IMG/VR virus record: IMGVR_UViG_3300045996_001551
Location: 1 to 23,758 of that record
Reading direction: 5' to 3' (one strand)
Source of the DNA: a virus
Length of the DNA stretch: 23,758 bases
Shown here: positions 3,297 through 23,271 of the stretch, piece after piece
Layout: each line of letters opens with the position of its first letter
Numbering within the stretch: position 1 is the first letter of the stretch
Notes under the pieces: generated by a model
What the model saw: the letters and a program-made list of their open reading frames with translations, nothing else
The model's database searches: none
Told to the model about the DNA's origin: nothing
Translations under genes and position numbers: made by a program

Positions 3297-3480
3297 GGTC
3301 TGCAGATTTTGCTTTTATGTGAACAATGTCTCGTCGACAGCCTGCACCCATTGCAAGGTGTCCTTGAAGGGCGTTCGAGCGATCTACATGGAGGAACGCA
3401 CCGGCATGCCCGGTCATGGCAACGCCAGCGGCAAACGAGCGCGGGCAGTGCCGGTGCGTCCCAAAGCGATCAGCGATTGA
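3175..3480 (+). CDS. Zinc-ribbon-like protein (up to 101 aa), last gene of rightward block
   Basis: ATG 3175 has AGGA at 3163-3166 with 8-base spacing, but starting here makes a 122-base overlap with the previous gene, and the first 40 residues are an Arg/Ser-rich stretch. GTG codons at 3271 or 3286 would shorten it but lack a ribosome binding site. Residues 43-60 form a convincing metal site: CRFC, ten residues, CTHC. The basic C-terminal tail suggests nucleic-acid contact. The gene converges with the leftward unit and overlaps its last gene by 11 bases. Start uncertain; cysteine core likely real. Confidence 0.5.
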   Translation: MNRSRKLGERESRSALAVERSRRSRKSVTVRSVSAVRVGLRVCRFCFYVNNVSSTACTHCKVSLKGVRAIYMEERTGMPGHGNASGKRARAVPVRPKAISD

Positions 3481-6869: not shown

Positions 6870-9800
6870 CGTTTCATAAACTCTACTTGAAACTCAGGGT
6901 CGATCACGAAGATCGACCCTGACAATGGTGGAGGGGGTAGCGGAACCCCCTTCACTATCCCCCCAATGGACAGCGTCACATTGTCACCCGTGTTGACAGG
7001 GACGAATGAAGTAATCGAAAACCCCTGTGGCGTGTCAAGTGGCACTCCGACGCCACTCTGCCCAGTGATCGCTCCACCGGTGTGGCCGGTAGACTGCAAT
7101 CGGACAGAGGCGCTCGAGCCCTGGCCGGTACGATAGGCATCGCCAGACAGGGTCACAACCAACGTACCTACAGATGCCATCACGCCAAGCGGAAAGTTTG
7201 TATTGTTGATCGGGATTGCGTTGCGCCCCCCACCGCTATACGTGCCGATCAACTGAAGCGACTCATGCTCACTGATCGCACCGGGCAAAACATCACCCGT
7301 ATCGATCATTTCAAATTCGATGCCGGGACCGAAAGCGACATTAACCGCACCGCTCCCCACTTCATGGAATGAGCCGTCAAAATAGGACAGCGGTCCCGTC
7401 GCCGCGCGAGGTCCAAAAACTATCGATCCATCTTTCCAGTAATAGACATTTCCGCCGGCATCTCTAGTCAGACCAAGCTGCGTCGCGGTCGTGTATGTTC
7501 CAAAATCCCCTATGTAGGTTCCGCTTTCATAAATCTGCAGCGGTCCGCTAGTGCAATACCACGCGTGCCGGATGTTCGTGTAGCTCATGCTTTGCGCAGG
7601 CGCATCACTAAATCCAATCATGAAGTGACGATTTGTCTGCGCGGGTCGAAACTGAATATGCGCTACGGCATAGCCTACGGCGCTAATGACATCAGCGTCA
7701 CCCCAAAAAGTTGTCCCACTGGTTTTGAATAGTGATCGAGTGCCAGCCGAGCAGCCTCCACGAGGAATCCATGGCGACGCTCGGTGGAAGCCGAGCAAAG
7801 AATCCACGGTAGGCTCACTGCCGTTGATCTCTTCGAAACGCGGCTCCGGCATCCACTGCCGCGTTGCCGTGTTCGTGTCATGGAAGTGATAGGCACGGTG
7901 ATTCTGTACCGTCGCCCCCACTGCATGACGAAACTCTGCTGCGCTTATAACTTTCTGCCCGGTCTCAGGGTCATATATTCCTGAGACCCCTGAGTTCCCG
8001 GCGTTGTATCCAGAGCCGTGAACAAGCCCTACGCTCAAATACCATCTATTGGGATGAAGGATTCCAGCGAACGAACTCAACACAATGGCTTGGAAATAGG
8101 GGTTACTATCGGTCGCGCCTGTTGCCGCATTTATGGCGCTAGCGCATCCATGATAGAACGTCCCCGTCAGTTGGTTGACTCGAAACCAAACAGTGGATCG
8201 ATACGTACGTCGACTATCGATCGGGAAGGTTGCAGTCGTCCAACCACCGTCACCATTCGTTCCAGTCCCGTCGACCGATTGACACTGCCAAAGCGGGATC
8301 GATGTTCTAAACGGTCCTAGCGGCGCCGTTCCCGCCCCACCCAAAACGATATTGTTTTCTGATGTGGAGCCATTCTGAACCCAAAATCCATCACCCTGGC
8401 TGCCGCTTGAGCCGACGACCCACTGTCCGACAGGCAGCATATTCTGCCCATCGCCTGGCTGACCTTGCCTGGCTTTGGTGATGGTGAAATCGATTGGAAT
8501 TGAAACTCCATTGTAAGAAGCCTGCAGGCGTGCTCGAGCCTGATCGGCCGTGATCACCGTCAGCCGATAAAACCCTCTGGGTTGACCTACTACGGGAGTA
8601 TTGTCAGCGGTGTTGATCTGAACGGTACATCCAGACTGTGAAACGATCGTGTAAACCGCTTGGGCTGTGCGATCGACAATTCCCTCAAAGACAAGAAAGA
8701 AACCAGACGCGCTCGTAAGATCGGTCACGACGCCGTCAGGGTCGGCGACTAGCGTGTGATTTTCGTTGGTGAGATGCCCAGAGATAGCGGGCTGCCCATT
8801 GGCACCGCTGGCACCCTGCGTCAAACGGATTACCGTGATTTCATCGAAGAACCCGTTGGACTCAGCCCGGACCCTAACGCTGTTGTTTCCTCCGAAGTTA
8901 GCAGCGGTCAGCGTCCGAATATCTCCACTTCCTGTCAGTGTGACATTCGGAGTAGTGGTCCATGTTGTGGCGGTCGCAATGTTGGTTCGAGCAGCTGTGA
9001 ATGTTATTGATGTCGGTGTCCCAGCGCCGCCCGACGCAGGGAATGCAAATGTCTGGGATGTAGCGGTCAGCCTGAGCTGCTGAGCCGGAGCGCCTGCCGT
9101 TCCCTGCGAGCCGCGCAACCCTGATGCGCCGAAATGGATATCGAGCAGCGAACCGGTTTGGGTCCACATCGAGACATCCAGAAACAGACGACCAACGAAC
9201 GGGTGATCTACACCAACCTGAGTGCCGTTACGGTACAGCCGGATGACTTCTCCATCATGTACGGCCGCGAAGATATCAGCGGCCACATATGTACCTAGGC
9301 TCGCGCCCTGAACACCGTTGGTGATTTGATGGAATGTTCCTGTTTCAGTGAGCACAAACCCGCTATTTATGCCCGTAATATTGGCATCGACTGCCGGATC
9401 ATCGTTCAATCCGATAGCGCGACGCGTGTTGACCGCCCCTGCTCGGCAGGTGAAAAAGCATCCGCCGGAAAAGCTGGATTGAGCGTACGCGCCCGCGTTC
9501 CACGAAGTGCTCCCGCCGGAAGACTTTGTGATGCTGGTTGAAGTGGTCGTGACATTCGTAGCGCCCGCCCAGTCGAATAAACCAGGCCCTTGAATACCTG
9601 GGACGCCAGGCTCCCCATCCTCGCCATCGATCGCAAGGATTGAGGGGGTCGACCATGTCCCAACCAGAATGCCGGCAGGCGTTTTAAGAGCTCGTGACAT
9701 CCACAGCGGATTGCCATCGTATGCAGGGGGTGCGTCGCTCCATCCGGAAGGGACATTGCCCGTAGGCGTTGTAGGCTGAATGGCCGATCGACGGAAGATG

Positions 9801-13350: not shown

Positions 13351-15128
13351 GATGATGGTTCCGGGATCAGTTCTCTGGCCTGTCTGCTCGATGGATTAAT
13401 AATCACCGCATCATATTCATTTATCCTGTCCTGCAGCTGCTCGATGAAATAATCGACGCTATCCCGACCAGTGAACACGTTACCCTCCACGACGAGCTGT
13501 ACGATGCGCTGCCCGCCTTGATCGGTCGCGTTTCCGCCTGATGTCGGTTCGTCGGTGCTGCCCGGCTGCATATAGACCGGATTGTGCGGCGCGCCGATAG
13601 AAGGAGCGCTGTCCCCGCCAGCCACCGTACTTGCCACCGCAGCAGCTCGAGCTGCACCATATACAGCCACTCCTGCCGCCGCCGCATACCCCCAAGGCGC
13701 GCCCCACTGCTTGATCACCTTCATCATGGCGGCATGCGTGTCCATGACAATCGATTTTATCGCCATGGTTTTCTCTATGATGAGGATCCCGCGAGCAATG
13801 CCGGCAAACTTTCCACCGTAAGCTGTGAGCAGACTTTGCGCCGCAAGCGCTCCTTGCTGCCGGATGCTGAGTAACTGTGCCTGCAGCTCCTCTTCCTGGC
13901 TTCGTTCATAGTTGCGCTCATTTCTGGCTGCTTCACTGCGCTCGGCAAGTTGCTCTTTTACGATCGCCGTGATTTGCTTCTGTGCCTCCTCTTCTGCAGA
14001 GATGGCATCATCTCTAACATCTTGCTGCCCATCGGCTATCATGTCCTGCAGCTTTTGCGCCTCTTCCGCGCGCTTACGCGCGATGTCCGCCATGATGTTG
14101 TCGAAGTCTTGCTGATCTTCGTTAATCTTTTTGAGCGTGACCCGAAATTCTTGGACTGGATCGATGCGACGGCTGATTGGACCGCCGCTGATCCGCTCGC
14201 CGCTCTGCAGGCGTTCGAGATCGCGAAGAACCTGCAAGCGCGGTTCGAGTTCAGCGAGCGCCGCCTGGATGTCTCGGATGCGCTGTGCGCCACTAGCGTT
14301 TGGCGAACCAGATTGGAAGAATTTTAATCGCGCCTCAAGGCGTGCGTATTTCTCTTCAAGATCTGTCAGCTCGTCGCCCGTACCAAAGATATCGGCCAGA
14401 AAATTACCGACCCCCGAAGCCACTGCATTTTTCGCGGCAGTAGTCCACTTGTCTAGAGCCTTTGTGCCGCGGTCGATTGCCTGCACTGCCCGAGTATCAA
14501 GCGTAATACCCAGACGATCAGCCTCGGCGTTTAGTTCGCGGATGCCTATAGAGCCTCGATTAAGCAACGGAATGAGCGCCTGGCCAGACTTGCCGAACAG
14601 ATCAGTGGCAATGCGCGTCTTTTCTACTTGCGGAATCGTATCCCGGAATCGATCAGATATTTTCGCGAGCTGCTCTTCGAGTGGCAGCTTTCCGAGCTCG
14701 CGCGCATCAAGATTCAAACGACCGAGCGCGGCACGCATCGAGCCCGTCCCAGCGATCGCCTCGCCAAGCCCATTCTGATACGTTCGAATGCTTGCGGTGA
14801 GCTGCCCGAATTCTATGTCAGACTGCTGCGCGACATGCTGCAAGCGTGAGAACGATTCTACAGATAGGCCAGCAACCTCGGCGGCATCGCCCAAAGCATC
14901 GGCCGCTCTTACTGCCGATAGAGCAAAAGTAGCAACGCCTGCTGCTGTAAAAATAGGGACAAACCGACCAATCGAAGCGCCGAGGGAAGCGAACCCGGCA
15001 TCGAGCTTTCCTAAATTGATAGTGCTCAAGCCACGCAGCGCGCTGTCGACCTGCATCGTACTCGCCAGCGCTGAGGCATTGTTGGCCCGGAGTTCGAACG
15101 CCGCGACAGGAATGCCGGTTGTGCTCAT
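13347..15128 (-). CDS. H: Tail tape measure protein (593 aa)
   Basis: This is the long helical protein directly after the frameshifted tail chaperone pair, the invariant place for the tape measure. It spans the lumen of the tail tube, fixes tail length and helps DNA cross the inner membrane. Residues 20-120 carry the usual 'ADALGDAAEVAGLSVESF' and 'QLTASIRTYQNGL' pattern. Hydrophobic segments lie at about 57-72 and about 470-505 (Ala/Gly-rich), joined by long coiled coils including a Glu/Gln/Ala-rich stretch. At roughly 0.15 nm per residue, 593 residues predict a tail near 90 nm. It is short for a siphovirus. Start ATG 15128 lies 10 bases after the GT stop. Confidence 0.9.
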   Translation of the reverse strand: MSTTGIPVAAFELRANNASALASTMQVDSALRGLSTINLGKLDAGFASLGASIGRFVPIFTAAGVATFALSAVRAADALGDAAEVAGLSVESFSRLQHVAQQSDIEFGQLTASIRTYQNGLGEAIAGTGSMRAALGRLNLDARELGKLPLEEQLAKISDRFRDTIPQVEKTRIATDLFGKSGQALIPLLNRGSIGIRELNAEADRLGITLDTRAVQAIDRGTKALDKWTTAAKNAVASGVGNFLADIFGTGDELTDLEEKYARLEARLKFFQSGSPNASGAQRIRDIQAALAELEPRLQVLRDLERLQSGERISGGPISRRIDPVQEFRVTLKKINEDQQDFDNIMADIARKRAEEAQKLQDMIADGQQDVRDDAISAEEEAQKQITAIVKEQLAERSEAARNERNYERSQEEELQAQLLSIRQQGALAAQSLLTAYGGKFAGIARGILIIEKTMAIKSIVMDTHAAMMKVIKQWGAPWGYAAAAGVAVYGAARAAAVASTVAGGDSAPSIGAPHNPVYMQPGSTDEPTSGGNATDQGGQRIVQLVVEGNVFTGRDSVDYFIEQLQDRINEYDAVIINPSSRQARELIPEPSS

Positions 15129-15137
15129 GTGTCACTT

Positions 15138-15676
15138 CTACTGTTTGCTGTCGATCCGACGAAAGTATAGCTTCCATGCCGTCAGCTCTTCGTAATCAAA
15201 CATCCTTTGCACGACTCGGACAGGCTTGCCCATCAGTGCCGCAAGCCTGTGCCAAGTCTCAAACAGCGGATCGACTAGGATTTTTTTTCCAGTGCTTCCG
15301 CCTCTTCCGGTGTTGTCGGCAGTCTCGAATGTTTGATGATAGCAACCGCGATCTTTCGCAGATCGCAAGAGTCTCTTCCTTGTAGCATCCCGACGCCATG
15401 AGAGACATCAGAGAAGAGCTTGTTTCCGAGCTGATCACAGGCGCACATCGCAATGATTTCCGCATCCGGCATCGGATTGTTTGGATACATCGCATTGTGC
15501 ACGACGAGCTTGTGATGCTCAGTCCCATTCATCGAAAGGAAATAGACAGTGCGACCCGTGCTAAGCGTTTCCTGTCCAATGCGCGGGCGAGACTCCATCC
15601 ATGCATCGATCGGGCTGTGATCGGCGCGTGCCACATCACCCGGTGGTGTCGGGACTGGCGTTGCTGATTGATTCAT
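15138..15676 (-). CDS. GT: Tail assembly chaperone GT, -1 frameshift fusion (179 aa)
   Basis: Translation starts at 15676 in the G frame and moves to the -1 frame at the A-run 15281-15287, reading on to the stop at 15138-15140. The product is 132 residues of G plus 47 residues of T ('ILVDPLFETWHRLAALMGKP...'). In lambda, G and GT bind the tape measure and gather tail-tube subunits, and their ratio is set by slippage. Here the T part has no start of its own that could avoid the overlap, fills the gap up to the tape measure, and has a helical, charged composition typical of T domains. Confidence 0.85.
15275..15676 (-). CDS. G: Tail assembly chaperone G (133 aa)
   Basis: The gene follows the tail tube gene in an ATGA overlap and precedes the tape measure, matching lambda gene G in order. 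The protein is helical with a 'PDAEIIAMCACDQLGNKLF' middle and ends 'EALEKKS', with its TAG only one codon beyond the slippery A-run. This is the product of ribosomes that do not slip and should be the major form. It is not part of the mature virion in characterised phages. The first 25 residues are proline-rich and likely flexible. Confidence 0.85.
   Translation of the reverse strand: MNQSATPVPTPPGDVARADHSPIDAWMESRPRIGQETLSTGRTVYFLSMNGTEHHKLVVHNAMYPNNPMPDAEIIAMCACDQLGNKLFSDVSHGVGMLQGRDSCDLRKIAVAIIKHSRLPTTPEEAEALEKKS
15281..15305 (-). promoter_or_regulatory. Programmed -1 frameshift site (A AAA AAA) with upstream SD-like GAGG
   Basis: Read on the minus strand, codons GAA AAA AAA TCC TAG contain the heptamer A AAA AAA in the correct X XXY YYZ phase (15287-15281), one codon before the G stop. 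A GAGG at 15304-15301 sits 13 bases upstream, in the range where a Shine-Dalgarno-like sequence stimulates -1 slippage in dnaX. After slipping, the frame runs ATC CTA GTC into the T domain. Confidence 0.85.
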
Positions 15677-16128
15677 GGCGTAACCGTGGGAACGCCGCTA
15701 ACGGCGATTTCGAAATCGTGCGGACGCGCCGCGGGAGCCTCTGTGGTCGCTGTATAAGCGCCGCCGGCCATGCGAATCAACTCGCCCTGAAAATCAGTGC
15801 GACGGTTGCCAGCATCGGGCTCGACCGCGTACCAGTTGCGCTTTCTACCCCCTTGCGCAAGGTCACCCAGCATTGTGTTGTGTACGGACTGGCTGTAATT
15901 GGTCAGTAGTTGACCAACACCATTGGACCACGATGGAGAGCTGACCGAAGCAATCGTGACACCGTCGAGCGTATTTTCTTTCGCCGCGCTCTTTGACGGC
16001 TCCGGGACCGTAAAGCTCTTGAGCTGAGGTATCTTTGTAAACGAATCCGAACCCGGGGCTGGCAATGGGTCGGCGGTCGATGCGCCCATATAAAGCTGTA
16101 CTTCCGAGGCGGAAGAAATCGCAGTCAT
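15673..16128 (-). CDS. V: Major tail tube protein (151 aa)
   Basis: The gene lies between the tail terminator and the tail chaperones, the usual place of the tube subunit. The protein is a compact beta-rich chain: 'SEVQLYMGAS', 'FTKIPQLKSFTVPEPSK', 'TIASVSSPSWSNG', 'FQGELIRMAGGAYTATTEAPA', a pattern seen in lambda gpV-type and related small tube proteins. About 30-40 hexameric rings would be needed for a 90-nm tail. At 151 residues it lacks the extra Ig-like C-terminal domain of lambda gpV. AGGA stands about ten bases before ATG 16128. Confidence 0.85.
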   Translation of the reverse strand: MTAISSASEVQLYMGASTADPLPAPGSDSFTKIPQLKSFTVPEPSKSAAKENTLDGVTIASVSSPSWSNGVGQLLTNYSQSVHNTMLGDLAQGGRKRNWYAVEPDAGNRRTDFQGELIRMAGGAYTATTEAPAARPHDFEIAVSGVPTVTP

Positions 16129-16609: not shown

Positions 16610-16906
16610 TTATTCCAACTCTAGCAAAGACCAACCCGAATTTCCGCGCGAGAAATCGCGGACCATCCACTTCTTTCCTCGCAGCTCGACATCCATGCCT
16701 TTGCGAAGTCCAAGCCGATCGGCATCGACATTAAGCACTGAAACGGAGGCATCGGTCGACCTCACCTGCGCGCCGGCAAGTGCGCCGCTGATCGCGGTTC
16801 CGATACGCGGGATGCCTCGGATACAGTGACCATCAAGAATGATGGACTCTCCGAGGTGGGTGGCGATGGTTTCCACCGCCACTTCCCGAACGTGCTTGAA
16901 GTCCAT
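16610..16906 (-). CDS. Head-tail joining protein, gpFII / Gifsy-2-like (98 aa)
   Basis: I start at ATG 16906 (MDFKHVREVAVETIATHLGE), five bases after the previous stop; an ATG at 16957 would overlap the cement gene by 46 bases and adds an unlikely His/Gln-rich leader. The protein contains the 'G..I..G..I.GI' barrel entry and ends in beta strands ('VSVLNVDADRLGLRKGMDV', 'KWMVRDFSR', 'GWSLLELE'), like lambda gpFII and the Gifsy-2 family, which form the tail attachment ring. Position between capsid cement and tail terminator agrees. Confidence 0.75.
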   Translation of the reverse strand: MDFKHVREVAVETIATHLGESIILDGHCIRGIPRIGTAISGALAGAQVRSTDASVSVLNVDADRLGLRKGMDVELRGKKWMVRDFSRGNSGWSLLELE

Positions 16907-16911
16907 TCCGA

Positions 16912-17277
16912 TTACGCAGTGCGCGTCGCGTTGCCCGGGGTGAGCTTGACGATACACGTCGTTTCAGCGTTGGCGCCCGCGCGTACCGCGATCACAGCGC
17001 CGGTGATATCCCCCGAGGCAGGTGTAGCAGCGCTATCGTCGAATGCCCCTGCGGAATCGTCCCAAATCAGCTTTTCGCCTTGGACGAAAACCGCAGCAGC
17101 GACTTTTGGCAGCTCGAAGACCCCTTCGATGGCAACGGGAATTGTTTCCCCCGATGCGCCATCGGTTAATGCCACGCCAATGCAATGCAACATATCGATG
17201 ACAGCGCCAGAGACGATCGTGCCACCGGCAACATAGTCGATCACGTTGCCGTCGCGCTGGACTTGATTCTTAGACAT
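16912..17277 (-). CDS. Capsid cement/decoration protein, DUF2190 family (121 aa)
   Basis: The protein has the DUF2190 layout: 'VIDYVAGGTIVSGAVIDM', 'GVALTDGASGETIPVAIEGVFELPK', and small-residue-rich strands to the end. The members form trimers or patches on the outside of expanded capsids and stabilise them. It has a strong ribosome binding site, GGAGGA (17285-17290), and follows the capsid gene after a 70-base gap that holds a GC-rich hairpin, so it may be expressed at its own level. The next gene starts five bases after its stop. Confidence 0.85.
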   Translation of the reverse strand: MSKNQVQRDGNVIDYVAGGTIVSGAVIDMLHCIGVALTDGASGETIPVAIEGVFELPKVAAAVFVQGEKLIWDDSAGAFDDSAATPASGDITGAVIAVRAGANAETTCIVKLTPGNATRTA

Positions 17278-17347: not shown

Positions 17348-19423
17348 TTAGGAGGCAGCACCCTCGTTCTTGAACGCTGCGCGGAAGTCGATCGCGGCCA
17401 GGCCGTAGTCGAGGCGTACTTTCATGTTCATGGCGTCGCTCATGAACTCGATTTCCTCATCGATGAACGGCTCACGCTCTCCATCCAGGAACGCCACCTC
17501 GATCGCCTCCACCAGATTCGGATCGGCGAACAGGAACCAATCCGTTCCCTGCACGTAGGGCGAAGAAACCACGGTCAGATTCAGCGTGCGCGCGTAGTTG
17601 CCACGAGCCGGATTTGCCTGCCCGGGATCGGCGGTCGAGTTGATGATTGTCCAGGCGAGAGCCTCGTACTCCGGCGCAACCAGCAAAATCTTGGGCTCGA
17701 TGCCGACATACTCGAGCAACGACAAATCACGCTGCCGCTTCATCATCGCATTCGCTGCGCCCAAGCTTGTGACAGAGATCACGGTTCCTGAGCTCACGTA
17801 GTTCGCGTGACCACCGGCCGTGGTAACTGCTGTGGCGTTGAACAGCGCGCCGGTATCGTCCATGGTGGGACCGGTTCCGGAATTCAGATAGAGCAGCGCA
17901 TAAAAGTCGATCTCGACCGTCCGGCCAGCTGCCTGACCCATTTTCTTCGCCATAGTCCCAAAGCCGTTCAGATCATCGTTGATGATCATTTCGCGAGACA
18001 GCGAGATGTAACGACCCTTCGTCGCGATCTTGATGCCGACCTCTTCTTCGCCGATCGTGCCTTGCTTGTATTCCCCACGCTCGGGCTTGAGAACAAGCGA
18101 CGAGAATGAGCCCAAGGTGAGGCGAGTGTTTTCCTTGAAATCCGGCACACTGCCAATCGCGGCGAGTTTGTCCCAGGTGCGCGGTACCGTCGTATAGGCA
18201 TCACGCAATCGCTTACGCGCCACGTTCGACATCAGCAGCGGGAAATCGCTCGTGGTGTGTGAGGCCAGCACCTTTCGAGCAATCTGATCCTTTGTCATTC
18301 CGCGACAGTTGACGCCGGATCGGCGCAACGCGTGCGCGGCCAGCTCATGCAGAGAGGCGCCGTTGAATTCGTTGCCTGCCTCTCGCTTCCCGCCGAGACG
18401 ATTCATGATGGCGCTTTCGGCGCCGGCCAGGAACTTGTCGCGCTCGGTGGCGCCAGGAACCACAGCAGCACCGCCGGGGCCACCAGCAGGACGCAGCGGC
18501 TCTGCGCCTTCCCCGAGCGCCTTCAGCAGCTTTGCGCTCGCGGCCTGTTCGGTGCACTCGACATCGCTCAAGCAGGTATTCATCAGCTCACTGTGCGAGA
18601 GCACGAACGGCGCAAACAGAGCACGGATTGCTTCCTGGCGAACCTTGTTCGCGGCAATGAAGTTCGTGCGGGCTTGCTCTGCGGCAGCATCAGCAGCGGC
18701 CTTGCGCGCCGCCTCGATCTCTTCAGGAGTCATTGCATGTACCTCGGGTAATGCGGCGGCTGCCGCTGGTTTCGGAGCGGCGGCAATCCGCCGGAGTGCA
18801 AAATCTTTGGGAACATTCCGGAAGCTGGCGATCAGTGCCTTCGCTTTATCGGTGGGCTCCTCATCATCCTCTGAATCGTCCTCATCGGGCGTCAGTTTCT
18901 CATCGGCGAATCCCTTCTCAATCGCGGCATCAGGACCCATCCATGTCTCATCGTCGCACATCTGTGCGAGTTCCTTGCGATCCATTCCGGTGCGCTCGGC
19001 ATAGGCATCGAGCATTCCATTACGGATTTCGTCGAGGGTGTCCGCCGTCTTGCGAAAGTCCTTCGCCTCGCCATAGGCGAGTGTCCATGGGTTGTGGATC
19101 ATGATCTTCGTGGCTGTGCCCATTTTGATGGTGCTGCCAGCCATGGCGATGATCGATGCGGCCGAAGCAGCCACGCCCTCAACCGCCACCGTGATTTTGG
19201 CGCCGTGGCTCTTCAATTGGTTATAGATGCCGATTCCGTCGAAAATGCTACCGCCGGGGGAATTAATTCTCACGAGAATATCATCCACCTCGCCGATTGC
19301 TTTTAGATCGTCTGCGATTTTCTTCGCACTGCAACCGTCCCCGTACCAGTCTTCGCCGATGTAATCATAGATGCGGATCTCGGCAGCCTTGGGCTTGTTC
19401 TTTCGGGCGAAAACCTGAATCAT
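17348..19423 (-). CDS. Prohead protease - scaffold - major capsid fusion protein (691 aa)
   Basis: One frame encodes three parts. Residues 1-180 are a ClpP-like (S14) protease: 'INSPGGS', nucleophile S87 in 'EGVAASAAS', H110 in 'IMIHNP', and an acidic residue at 158-159 in 'DDETWMGP'. Residues 181-230 are an acidic then Ala/Pro-rich linker. Residues 231-390 are a helical scaffold-like region ('TPEEIEAARKAAADAAAEQA'). Residues 392-691 are the major capsid protein, with 'TLGSFSSLVLKPERGEYK', 'ISLSREMIINDDL' and a final 'MKVRLDYGLAAIDFRAAF'. NCBI lists such protease/capsid fusions as a family. The protease should cut out the scaffold after assembly. The start overlaps the portal stop (ATGA). Confidence 0.9.
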   Translation of the reverse strand: MIQVFARKNKPKAAEIRIYDYIGEDWYGDGCSAKKIADDLKAIGEVDDILVRINSPGGSIFDGIGIYNQLKSHGAKITVAVEGVAASAASIIAMAGSTIKMGTATKIMIHNPWTLAYGEAKDFRKTADTLDEIRNGMLDAYAERTGMDRKELAQMCDDETWMGPDAAIEKGFADEKLTPDEDDSEDDEEPTDKAKALIASFRNVPKDFALRRIAAAPKPAAAAALPEVHAMTPEEIEAARKAAADAAAEQARTNFIAANKVRQEAIRALFAPFVLSHSELMNTCLSDVECTEQAASAKLLKALGEGAEPLRPAGGPGGAAVVPGATERDKFLAGAESAIMNRLGGKREAGNEFNGASLHELAAHALRRSGVNCRGMTKDQIARKVLASHTTSDFPLLMSNVARKRLRDAYTTVPRTWDKLAAIGSVPDFKENTRLTLGSFSSLVLKPERGEYKQGTIGEEEVGIKIATKGRYISLSREMIINDDLNGFGTMAKKMGQAAGRTVEIDFYALLYLNSGTGPTMDDTGALFNATAVTTAGGHANYVSSGTVISVTSLGAANAMMKRQRDLSLLEYVGIEPKILLVAPEYEALAWTIINSTADPGQANPARGNYARTLNLTVVSSPYVQGTDWFLFADPNLVEAIEVAFLDGEREPFIDEEIEFMSDAMNMKVRLDYGLAAIDFRAAFKNEGAAS
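18731..18745 (-). promoter_or_regulatory. Candidate internal translation start for scaffold-capsid
   Basis: Within the fusion gene, GAGGT (18741-18745 on the minus strand) is followed after 7 bases by an in-frame ATG at 18733, which is Met231, exactly at the boundary between linker and scaffold region. Initiation here would give a 461-residue scaffold-capsid protein without protease, similar in logic to lambda Nu3 made from inside gene C. Confidence 0.5.
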
Positions 19424-21281: not shown

Positions 21282-23271
21282 ATCGGTTAAACCATGATCC
21301 TCGGTTAGTCGTAACCCATCGGCCGCGCGATGGCGGATTCGGGCGTGGCGCCGGCGGGGGCTTCGGGGGCTGCTCGGGCTGCTCGACCTCGGCTACCGCG
21401 TCATCCGCTACAGTCTCAGTTTTCGCACTCCCGTATTTTGCTTCCACTGCCTTGGAAATGTCATCAAGTTTTAATGATCTGGCCAGCATGGCGGCATAGG
21501 CGTAGATCCAGCAGTCGAGCGGCTCCTGGGGGGCGTTCATCTTTTTAGGACGGAAGAATGCGACACGGCGCCCCTGCACTTCCTTATAAAACTTTTGTTC
21601 GCTGGTGAGTCCGTCGAACCACGCATCATCCACGCTGGCAGGGAAATGGATGTAGCCATCGAGTGAGGCGGAAATGACCTTTGACAAGCGCTGGTAGAGC
21701 AGATCTTTTGCCGTATCTACGCCGATGATGAAAAGATCACAGCGACTGCCTTTTGCCTTGCCGGGCTTCTTTGGCCACACCAACCTACCCAATCCCGCCG
21801 CGCCCTTGATCGCAAAAACCCTTTCGAATCTGTGCTTATAGCAGTATTTGTATGCCTCCTGCGTGTAATGTCCGCCAGTGTCGACACAAACAGCGTCGAT
21901 CTGTAGCACACGCCCGCTCTCAGTGATGAATGTGCGCTGTCGATATTTTGTCAGCGCATCCCAAACGTCTTTTGCACCAGGATTGCCACGCTCGACATGA
22001 TGCTCTATGACCCAGCAGTGATCTCGAGCGCCCCACCCTACGAGCTGCCACTCAAGCCGATCGTCTTGCGTATCCACTCCTACGGTGAGCTCCACCACGC
22101 CATTCGGCAGGCTGTCGGGTCCATACGGCTCTTTCCGGTCTTTGATTGAGGACCCATCCACTGCCTCGCCCTTTGCTTCCCATGTCTCGCCCAATGCGGT
22201 ATTGACCCAAGTCTGCAGCGTCGACGGAAGGCGCTTCGCGATGAGGAACGCGGTTGCCATTTCCCCCCACTTGACCCAAGGCGAATACAGCTCGCTGATA
22301 TGAAATCCGGCGAGACCATTAAAGGGCTTGCTCGCGGTCCATCGACCACGCTTGAGCATCTCCGGCTTGTCTACATCGCGCAGCTCGGCGGTACAGTGCT
22401 TACACACATAGACCGCGGCGGAGGGATTGCCATCGGGCCAGCGCACTTGAGACCAGACAAGGCGCTGAAATTCGTTACAGCGCGGGCACGGCACCTCATA
22501 AAATCGCATGTCGCTGCCCTCGAATCCGGCCTCGATACGGCTTGCGCCCTTGATCGTTGGAGTTGATCCGGCCAAAAACTTTTTATTCCAAAAAGTGGTA
22601 GATCTTTTTTTTCCCAAAGAAATCGGATCACCTTCGGTTCCGGCACTGACCGGGTATCGGTCCACCTCATCGAACAGGGTGATGCGAATCGGTCGAGAGG
22701 CTAGCCCCGAAGGGGCATTCGCGCCCGCGATCGTAATATGCCCGCCCGGGAATTGCTTATGCAGTAGCGTGTTCCCGCTGTCCCTGGATCGCACATCCTT
22801 GACCCGACCTCGAAGCGACGGCGAGTCTCGCAGCATGGGGGCCAATCGATCTTTCGACCAGGCTTCCGCGATTTCAACAGTCGGCTGCACCATCAACATC
22901 GGCGCTGGATCCTGGTCTATGTGATAGCCAACAACGTTATTCAGAGCCTCGGTGTACCCCACCTGCGCGCTCTTCATCACCCAAATTTCTAGGATCGCCG
23001 GATCCGACACCGCATCCATGATGCCGCGCAAATAGGGCGCTCGATCCGTTCGATAGCGCCCTGGCTCCGCGCTTGATTCGCTAGATAGGTACCTCCGCTC
23101 GTCTGCCCATTCGCTCACCGTCCATCTCGGCGGTGGCTTCAATATCGAGAGCGTCTGAGCTATCAGTCTGTCGATCGTCGCTGATTCCGTGGTCAGGTCG
23201 ATAATCGGCAGCTTCCGAGAGAGCAGCGTGGAGCTCGGTAGTAAGGCGGTCTCTGATGCTTCCTGGATCAT
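21265..23271 (-). CDS. Terminase large subunit, lambda GpA family (668 aa)
   Basis: The protein is the packaging motor and nuclease. ATPase signs are a Walker A-like K100-SAQVGYT and Walker B 'ITLFDEVD' with D201-E202. A zinc ribbon is formed by C262, C265, C290 and C293. The nuclease half has acidic 'VGVDTQDDRLE' (D400) and 'VCVDTGGHY' (D464). 'EWADERRYLSSESSAEPGR' near residue 54 is typical of the family. The C-terminal 50 residues are proline-rich. ATG 23271 is the only ATG start; it overlaps terS by 191 bases, and even the conserved EWADE motif lies within terS. An A-run at 22612-22605 repeats the slippery heptamer but leads to a stop. Confidence 0.93.
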   Translation of the reverse strand: MIQEASETALLPSSTLLSRKLPIIDLTTESATIDRLIAQTLSILKPPPRWTVSEWADERRYLSSESSAEPGRYRTDRAPYLRGIMDAVSDPAILEIWVMKSAQVGYTEALNNVVGYHIDQDPAPMLMVQPTVEIAEAWSKDRLAPMLRDSPSLRGRVKDVRSRDSGNTLLHKQFPGGHITIAGANAPSGLASRPIRITLFDEVDRYPVSAGTEGDPISLGKKRSTTFWNKKFLAGSTPTIKGASRIEAGFEGSDMRFYEVPCPRCNEFQRLVWSQVRWPDGNPSAAVYVCKHCTAELRDVDKPEMLKRGRWTASKPFNGLAGFHISELYSPWVKWGEMATAFLIAKRLPSTLQTWVNTALGETWEAKGEAVDGSSIKDRKEPYGPDSLPNGVVELTVGVDTQDDRLEWQLVGWGARDHCWVIEHHVERGNPGAKDVWDALTKYRQRTFITESGRVLQIDAVCVDTGGHYTQEAYKYCYKHRFERVFAIKGAAGLGRLVWPKKPGKAKGSRCDLFIIGVDTAKDLLYQRLSKVISASLDGYIHFPASVDDAWFDGLTSEQKFYKEVQGRRVAFFRPKKMNAPQEPLDCWIYAYAAMLARSLKLDDISKAVEAKYGSAKTETVADDAVAEVEQPEQPPKPPPAPRPNPPSRGRWVTTNRGSWFNRYGQRP

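Follow-up and report, generated by a model that had tools for sequence, protein, structure and literature searches.

The window, meaning the whole stretch of viral DNA that was analysed (23,758 nucleotides, IMG/VR record IMGVR_UViG_3300045996_001551), carries on its minus strand genes in the order terminase, portal (Pfam Phage_portal_2), protease-capsid fusion, cement protein, head-tail connector, an unassigned gene, a probable tail tube gene, G, T and tape measure. The fusion (17348-19423, 691 aa) unites the protease, a ClpP-like domain, with the major capsid protein (Phage_capsid_4). Two overlapping frames, G and T, sit directly upstream of the tape measure gene, and an in-phase X_XXY_YYZ slip site was found near the 3' end of G (Table 1). 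A family search with the tail tube candidate gave no match, no Rfam families were found in the window, and structure prediction for G was unsuccessful (pLDDT 42.5).

Table 1. Features of the G/T region (window coordinates) and the basis on which each was assigned
Feature	Position	Strand	Basis
Gene directly upstream of G, probable major tail (tube) protein	15673..16128	-	position only
Gene G, probable tail assembly chaperone, 133 aa, C-terminus EALEKKS*	15275..15676	-	ORF; homology via L024 G
SD-like GAGG, 13 nt before the heptamer; possible frameshift stimulator	15301..15304	-	spacing; class-level enrichment
Slippery heptamer A_AAA_AAA, in phase with G, within A8 run 15281-15288	15281..15287	-	sequence; relatives' junction
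TAG stop of G, one codon (TCC) past the slip	15275..15277	-	sequence; TCCTAG or NNCTAG ending also in L024, L026, L081
T segment after the -1 shift, 47 codons and stop	15138..15281	-	codon usage; phrog_337; L024 T
Weaker outer pairing, from 9 nt after the slip	15271 to 15202	-	varies with folded length
Hairpin, 17 bp with 11-nt loop, inside T, starting 22 nt after the heptamer	15213..15258	-	folding
Tape measure protein, 593 aa	13347..15128	-	phrog_9483 tail length tape measure, E 1.6e-37

The 3' end of G reads GAG GCG GAA GCA CTG GAA AAA AAA TCC TAG, so that the gene does end one codon after an in-phase A_AAA_AAA, as the initial annotation had stated. The 47-codon -1 frame described there is also present, running from the slip to a stop at 15140-15138 and reading ILVDP...IDSKQ. 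Two details differ from that description. The -1 frame was said to open at the slip and is in fact free of stops from 15407, about 120 nt further upstream; the distance to the tape measure was given as 10 bases, and the ATG at 15128 makes it 9 nt past the T stop. Tape measure and T share one frame. A -1 shift yields a GT fusion of 179 aa with the junction EKK-ILVDPLFETWHRLAALMGKPVRVVQRMFDYEELTAWKLYFRRIDSKQ, and the 146-nt 'gap' ahead of the tape measure should be annotated as T coding sequence. Independent initiation of T was considered and rejected: its first 16 codons contain no start codon, and two later ATGs have no well-placed SD, as judged by eye.

Eleven genes of the window were examined, and an A/T-type X_XXY_YYZ heptamer in phase within the last few codons occurs in G alone; the sole other heptamer close to a stop, CCCGGGC, stands 9 codons before 16912-17277 ends. 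The gene for the terminase large subunit contains a second minus-strand A8 run (22605-22612), which also reads in phase as A_AAA_AAA but is some 450 codons short of the stop. In related loci, a favourable slip site occurs within the last five or so codons of 31 of 1964 ORFs (1.6%), many of which are G genes themselves. By codon usage, the T frame scores 0.075 where real genes average 0.16; the value falls inside the spread of real genes, and 0.4% of out-of-frame windows attain it.

Relatives of G and T and the junction between them

Searched alone, the window G reaches phrog_344 at E 0.19, short of the family threshold, and T reaches phrog_337 'tail protein' at E 2.7e-4. T gave no Pfam hit when tested for PF06223, most of whose core it is missing. 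A capsid-profile search of bacterial genomes uncovered a relative, L024, with 50% capsid identity; this contig is deposited as part of an uncultured Acidobacteria MAG. Its G (119 aa, ending EANEKKS*) lies between capsid and tape measure and is followed by a -1 frame T of 83 aa (ILGEPEIEAWHW...). In pairwise comparisons against a one-sequence database, the window G is 32% identical to that of L024 (E 2e-8) and the window T 38% identical over 50 aa (E 7e-8); the two tape measures align from the N-terminus, by inspection. The match of L024 G to phrog_344 'tail assembly chaperone' has E 9.8e-8, and L024 T exceeds the Pfam cut-off for PF06223 Phage_tail_T (30.4 vs 25.9 bits). The window G is very diverged.

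The 15-nt junction GAAAAAAAATCCTAG is identical in the window and L024; the flanks differ and the proteins are only about 35% identical. Two further loci, L026 and L081, carry GAAAAAAAATACTAG and GAAAAAAAAGGCTAG at the same place, that is, A8 followed by NNCTAG. Other searches yielded little. Phage records gave no tblastn match with the window G, L024 G or the tail tube protein, and only weak hits with T, the best of which (Moraxella phage Mcat9, E 3) falls on a genuine Phage_tail_T. Scans of viral contigs with the tape measure, the tail tube protein and a G alignment found no relatives. A match of L002 to G was rejected, being weak and outside any tape measure or T context. A contig with 85% capsid identity, L003, ends before G, and no close relative spans the junction.

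An exact scan of 2.9 million viral contigs with the bare 16-mer CGAAAAAAAATCCTAG returned 8 loci, 5 of which (L107-L111) are in-phase chaperone-type G/T pairs. In these five, the 16-mer closes, in phase, an ORF of G size whose C-terminus is EKKS*, the GAAAAAAAATCCTAG junction is present as in the window, and T frames of 98-117 codons follow the slip. A tape-measure-like long gene comes next in four; L107 stops at the contig end. T of L107 and L109 is Phage_tail_T, above the cut-off, and their G is phrog_344. G and T of L108 and of the L110/L111 pair have no detectable similarity to those of the window, and the next long genes of L108 and L110, the two tested, match tape-measure families. In these 5 of 8 matches from the viral collection, the identical junction thus serves several G/T families, at least three of them unrelated. 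As TCCTAG was fixed in the search string, the hits cannot show a preference for it; the contrast of GAAAAAAAANNCTAG with GAAAAAAAANNN (and other stops) would separate such a preference from a search-string artefact. The 16-mer CGAAAAAAAATCCTAG could serve as a short exact signature for finding G/T pairs in metagenomic contigs.

Conservation of a lambda-style G/GT arrangement, which the initial annotation had described for long-tailed phages, is thus borne out, since heptamer, -1 frame and place ahead of the tape measure are kept in the relatives. Homologues with an intact G and a closed T frame had been named as evidence to the contrary; L024, L107 and L109 were checked in this respect, and all three have T frames.

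Some true pairs escape the strict slip rule. Phage mEp043 (L017:9096-9138) has annotated GpG and T genes that overlap without a canonical X_XXY_YYZ; its slip site must be non-canonical, with G_GAA_AAG as a candidate. The 'no slip' result in 61 loci, a count that includes loci where the tape measure was not found, is therefore not evidence of absence.

Sequence elements on either side of the slip site

SD stimulators of -1 frameshifting sit 9-14 nt upstream of the slip site (PMC5009743, review). The GAGG lies 13 nt upstream of the heptamer, exactly as first reported, and hence inside the published range. Of 32 candidate sites for a G/T slip, 15 (47%) carry an SD-like 4-mer 7-14 nt upstream, against 12% of control in-frame positions in the same genes, and the energy of pairing with the anti-SD is -4.6 kcal/mol at slip sites and -2.3 kcal/mol at controls; each value was reached by 0 of 20,000 resamplings. 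The motif positions peak at 9-10 nt upstream. Measured against synonymous recoding, the excess is modest (15 vs 10.9, reached by 9 of 500 recodings, or 23 of 500 once related sites are weighted), and the encoded residues therefore account for part of the enrichment. In the five pairs of the 16-mer scan, GGAG or GAGG occurs at 7-10 nt in four (binomial P 0.001 vs the 12% rate; 0.007 with the related pair L110/L111 counted once).

The proposal that the GAGG of the window helps slippage agrees with its spacing and with the enrichment of the class. At the level of the single site, synonymous recodings of EEAEAL pair with the anti-SD equally well or better half the time, and the motif was not found in L024, the nearest relative. 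The window GAGG is explained equally well by the residues it encodes, and is a possible stimulator of slippage.

Downstream, the hairpin region of T folds with -37.6 kcal/mol over 81 nt (z -4.1), placing it among the most stable 0.4% of the window after GC correction. The core pairs with a probability of about 1.0 in all foldings; the outer pairs vary. Taken as a class, G/T sites are followed by more structure than coding controls are (mean z80 -1.63 vs -0.36, p 4e-5), and none of 124 controls lies at or below z -4.1. Structures that stimulate -1 frameshifting usually begin 6-9 nt after the slip, 12-15 nt also being given, and the core at 22 nt is further away than the usual 6-9 nt. We hypothesise that the hairpin has a role in frameshifting. 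After GC correction, the window folds most strongly elsewhere, at 6875-6973 (-43.9 kcal/mol per 81 nt), the 3' end of a 2023-aa fibre-like gene; further strong signals lie at 16811-16891 and 3383-3472.

Possible routes to a GT protein

Taken together, our results indicate, with a probability of roughly 0.87, that 15676-15138 is a lambda-type tail assembly chaperone pair expressed through programmed -1 ribosomal frameshifting. Most ribosomes would make G and terminate at TAG. A minority would slip back one base on A_AAA_AAA, where two lysine tRNAs can re-pair with AAA, and would go on in the T frame to give GT. In lambda, G binds the tape measure and T recruits the tail tube protein (Atkins et al. 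2016, PMC5009743). By this precedent, the tape measure protein would be coated by the G part. GT would be the rarer product, its low ratio to G being set by the efficiency of the slip, and its T part would bring in tail tube subunits. In E. coli-type tests, frameshifting was about 10% with A_AAA_AAA cassettes and 6-7% with those of tail chaperones (PMC3711429). We infer that the site is used in vivo and that GT is made, by a ribosomal rather than a transcriptional mechanism.

The same protein could be reached through RNA polymerase, which might add an A within the A8 run, so that a fraction of the mRNAs would encode GT in one frame. The window run does have eight A, programmed transcriptional realignment is listed as acting on A runs above 7 (PMC3711429), runs of 9 slip in bacteria (PMC5009743), and A8 is present in every A_AAA_AAA relative examined. 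GAA AAA AAA, however, necessarily makes A8; many slip sites at the same position are not homopolymeric (GGGAAAG, AAAAAAC, TTTTTTC); and the elements enriched at slip sites, SD-like and structural, act on ribosomes. Transcriptional slippage is improbable. Detection of EKKILVDP by mass spectrometry, one of the checks first suggested, cannot tell the two routes apart because both yield this junction peptide; RNA sequencing can separate them.

The length of T raises a different doubt. The window T has 47 aa, compared with 83-117 aa in its homologues, and its C-terminal half is missing: it stops just after a conserved EL..WK.Y motif, and the relatives run 36-70 residues further, through a ...P.DF.P motif and most of the PF06223 core. 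The missing DNA does not lie downstream, because the tape measure starts 9 nt later. The frame might then be a decayed remnant that lost its C-terminal half by deletion and left GT nonfunctional. Against this, T keeps coding-like codon usage without stops and follows an intact slip junction, and T frames that are likewise in phase and short, at 46-53 codons (L004, L059, L066, L093) or 60 (L081), are found in other phages. Decay is improbable, and since T frames of 46-60 codons exist elsewhere, the short T may work. A naturally short T could be of use in locating the part of T responsible for recruiting tail tube subunits.

Mere coincidence, with an A run close to the end of G and a -1 frame open by chance, has in its favour that the -1 frame is open after 978 of 1964 phage ORFs and that a loose heptamer scan, which was not discriminating and was not used as evidence, gave as many wrong-phase hits (38 and 47 in the controls) as right-phase ones, but T homology in the -1 frame and an identical junction in independent phages leave it a negligible chance, the conserved T homology already refuting it in substance.

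Programmed frameshifting in a chaperone pair is an ordinary conserved phage feature, to which the window adds a new lambda-style G/GT family member and the confirmation of a conserved recoding event in an uncultured phage. Its added value lies in a junction conserved in diverse phages, a stimulator signal at the level of the class, and a shortened T. A more speculative view, possible though doubtful, is that unrelated G/T families share a composite cassette (an SD-like element about 10 nt upstream, G-A8-TCCTAG and a downstream stem) that was kept or re-evolved while G and T were exchanged, and that the 47-aa T represents the minimal functional part.

Comparison with known frameshift systems

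The likeness to dnaX of E. coli is limited to the signal and does not extend to the gene. Both have an SD-like element, an A-rich heptamer and a downstream stem-loop. The dnaX slip site is A_AAA_AAG, with an efficiency of about 50%, whereas the window has A_AAA_AAA, an SD spacing of 13 nt and a stem core 22 nt away.

In lambda gpG/gpGT, as in the window, the pair lies between a putative tail tube gene and the tape measure, the site of the -1 shift is near the end of G, and T probably belongs to the same domain family, the relatives of the window T being Pfam Phage_tail_T. The slip site is GGGAAAG in lambda and A_AAA_AAA in the window; the window T, moreover, lacks the C-terminal half and ends 9 nt before the tape measure. 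Other close counterparts are L024, L107 and L109. Although their T is longer, at 83-117 aa, and L024 has no GAGG, they combine a phrog_344 G and a PF06223 T with a GAAAAAAAATCCTAG junction identical to that of the window.
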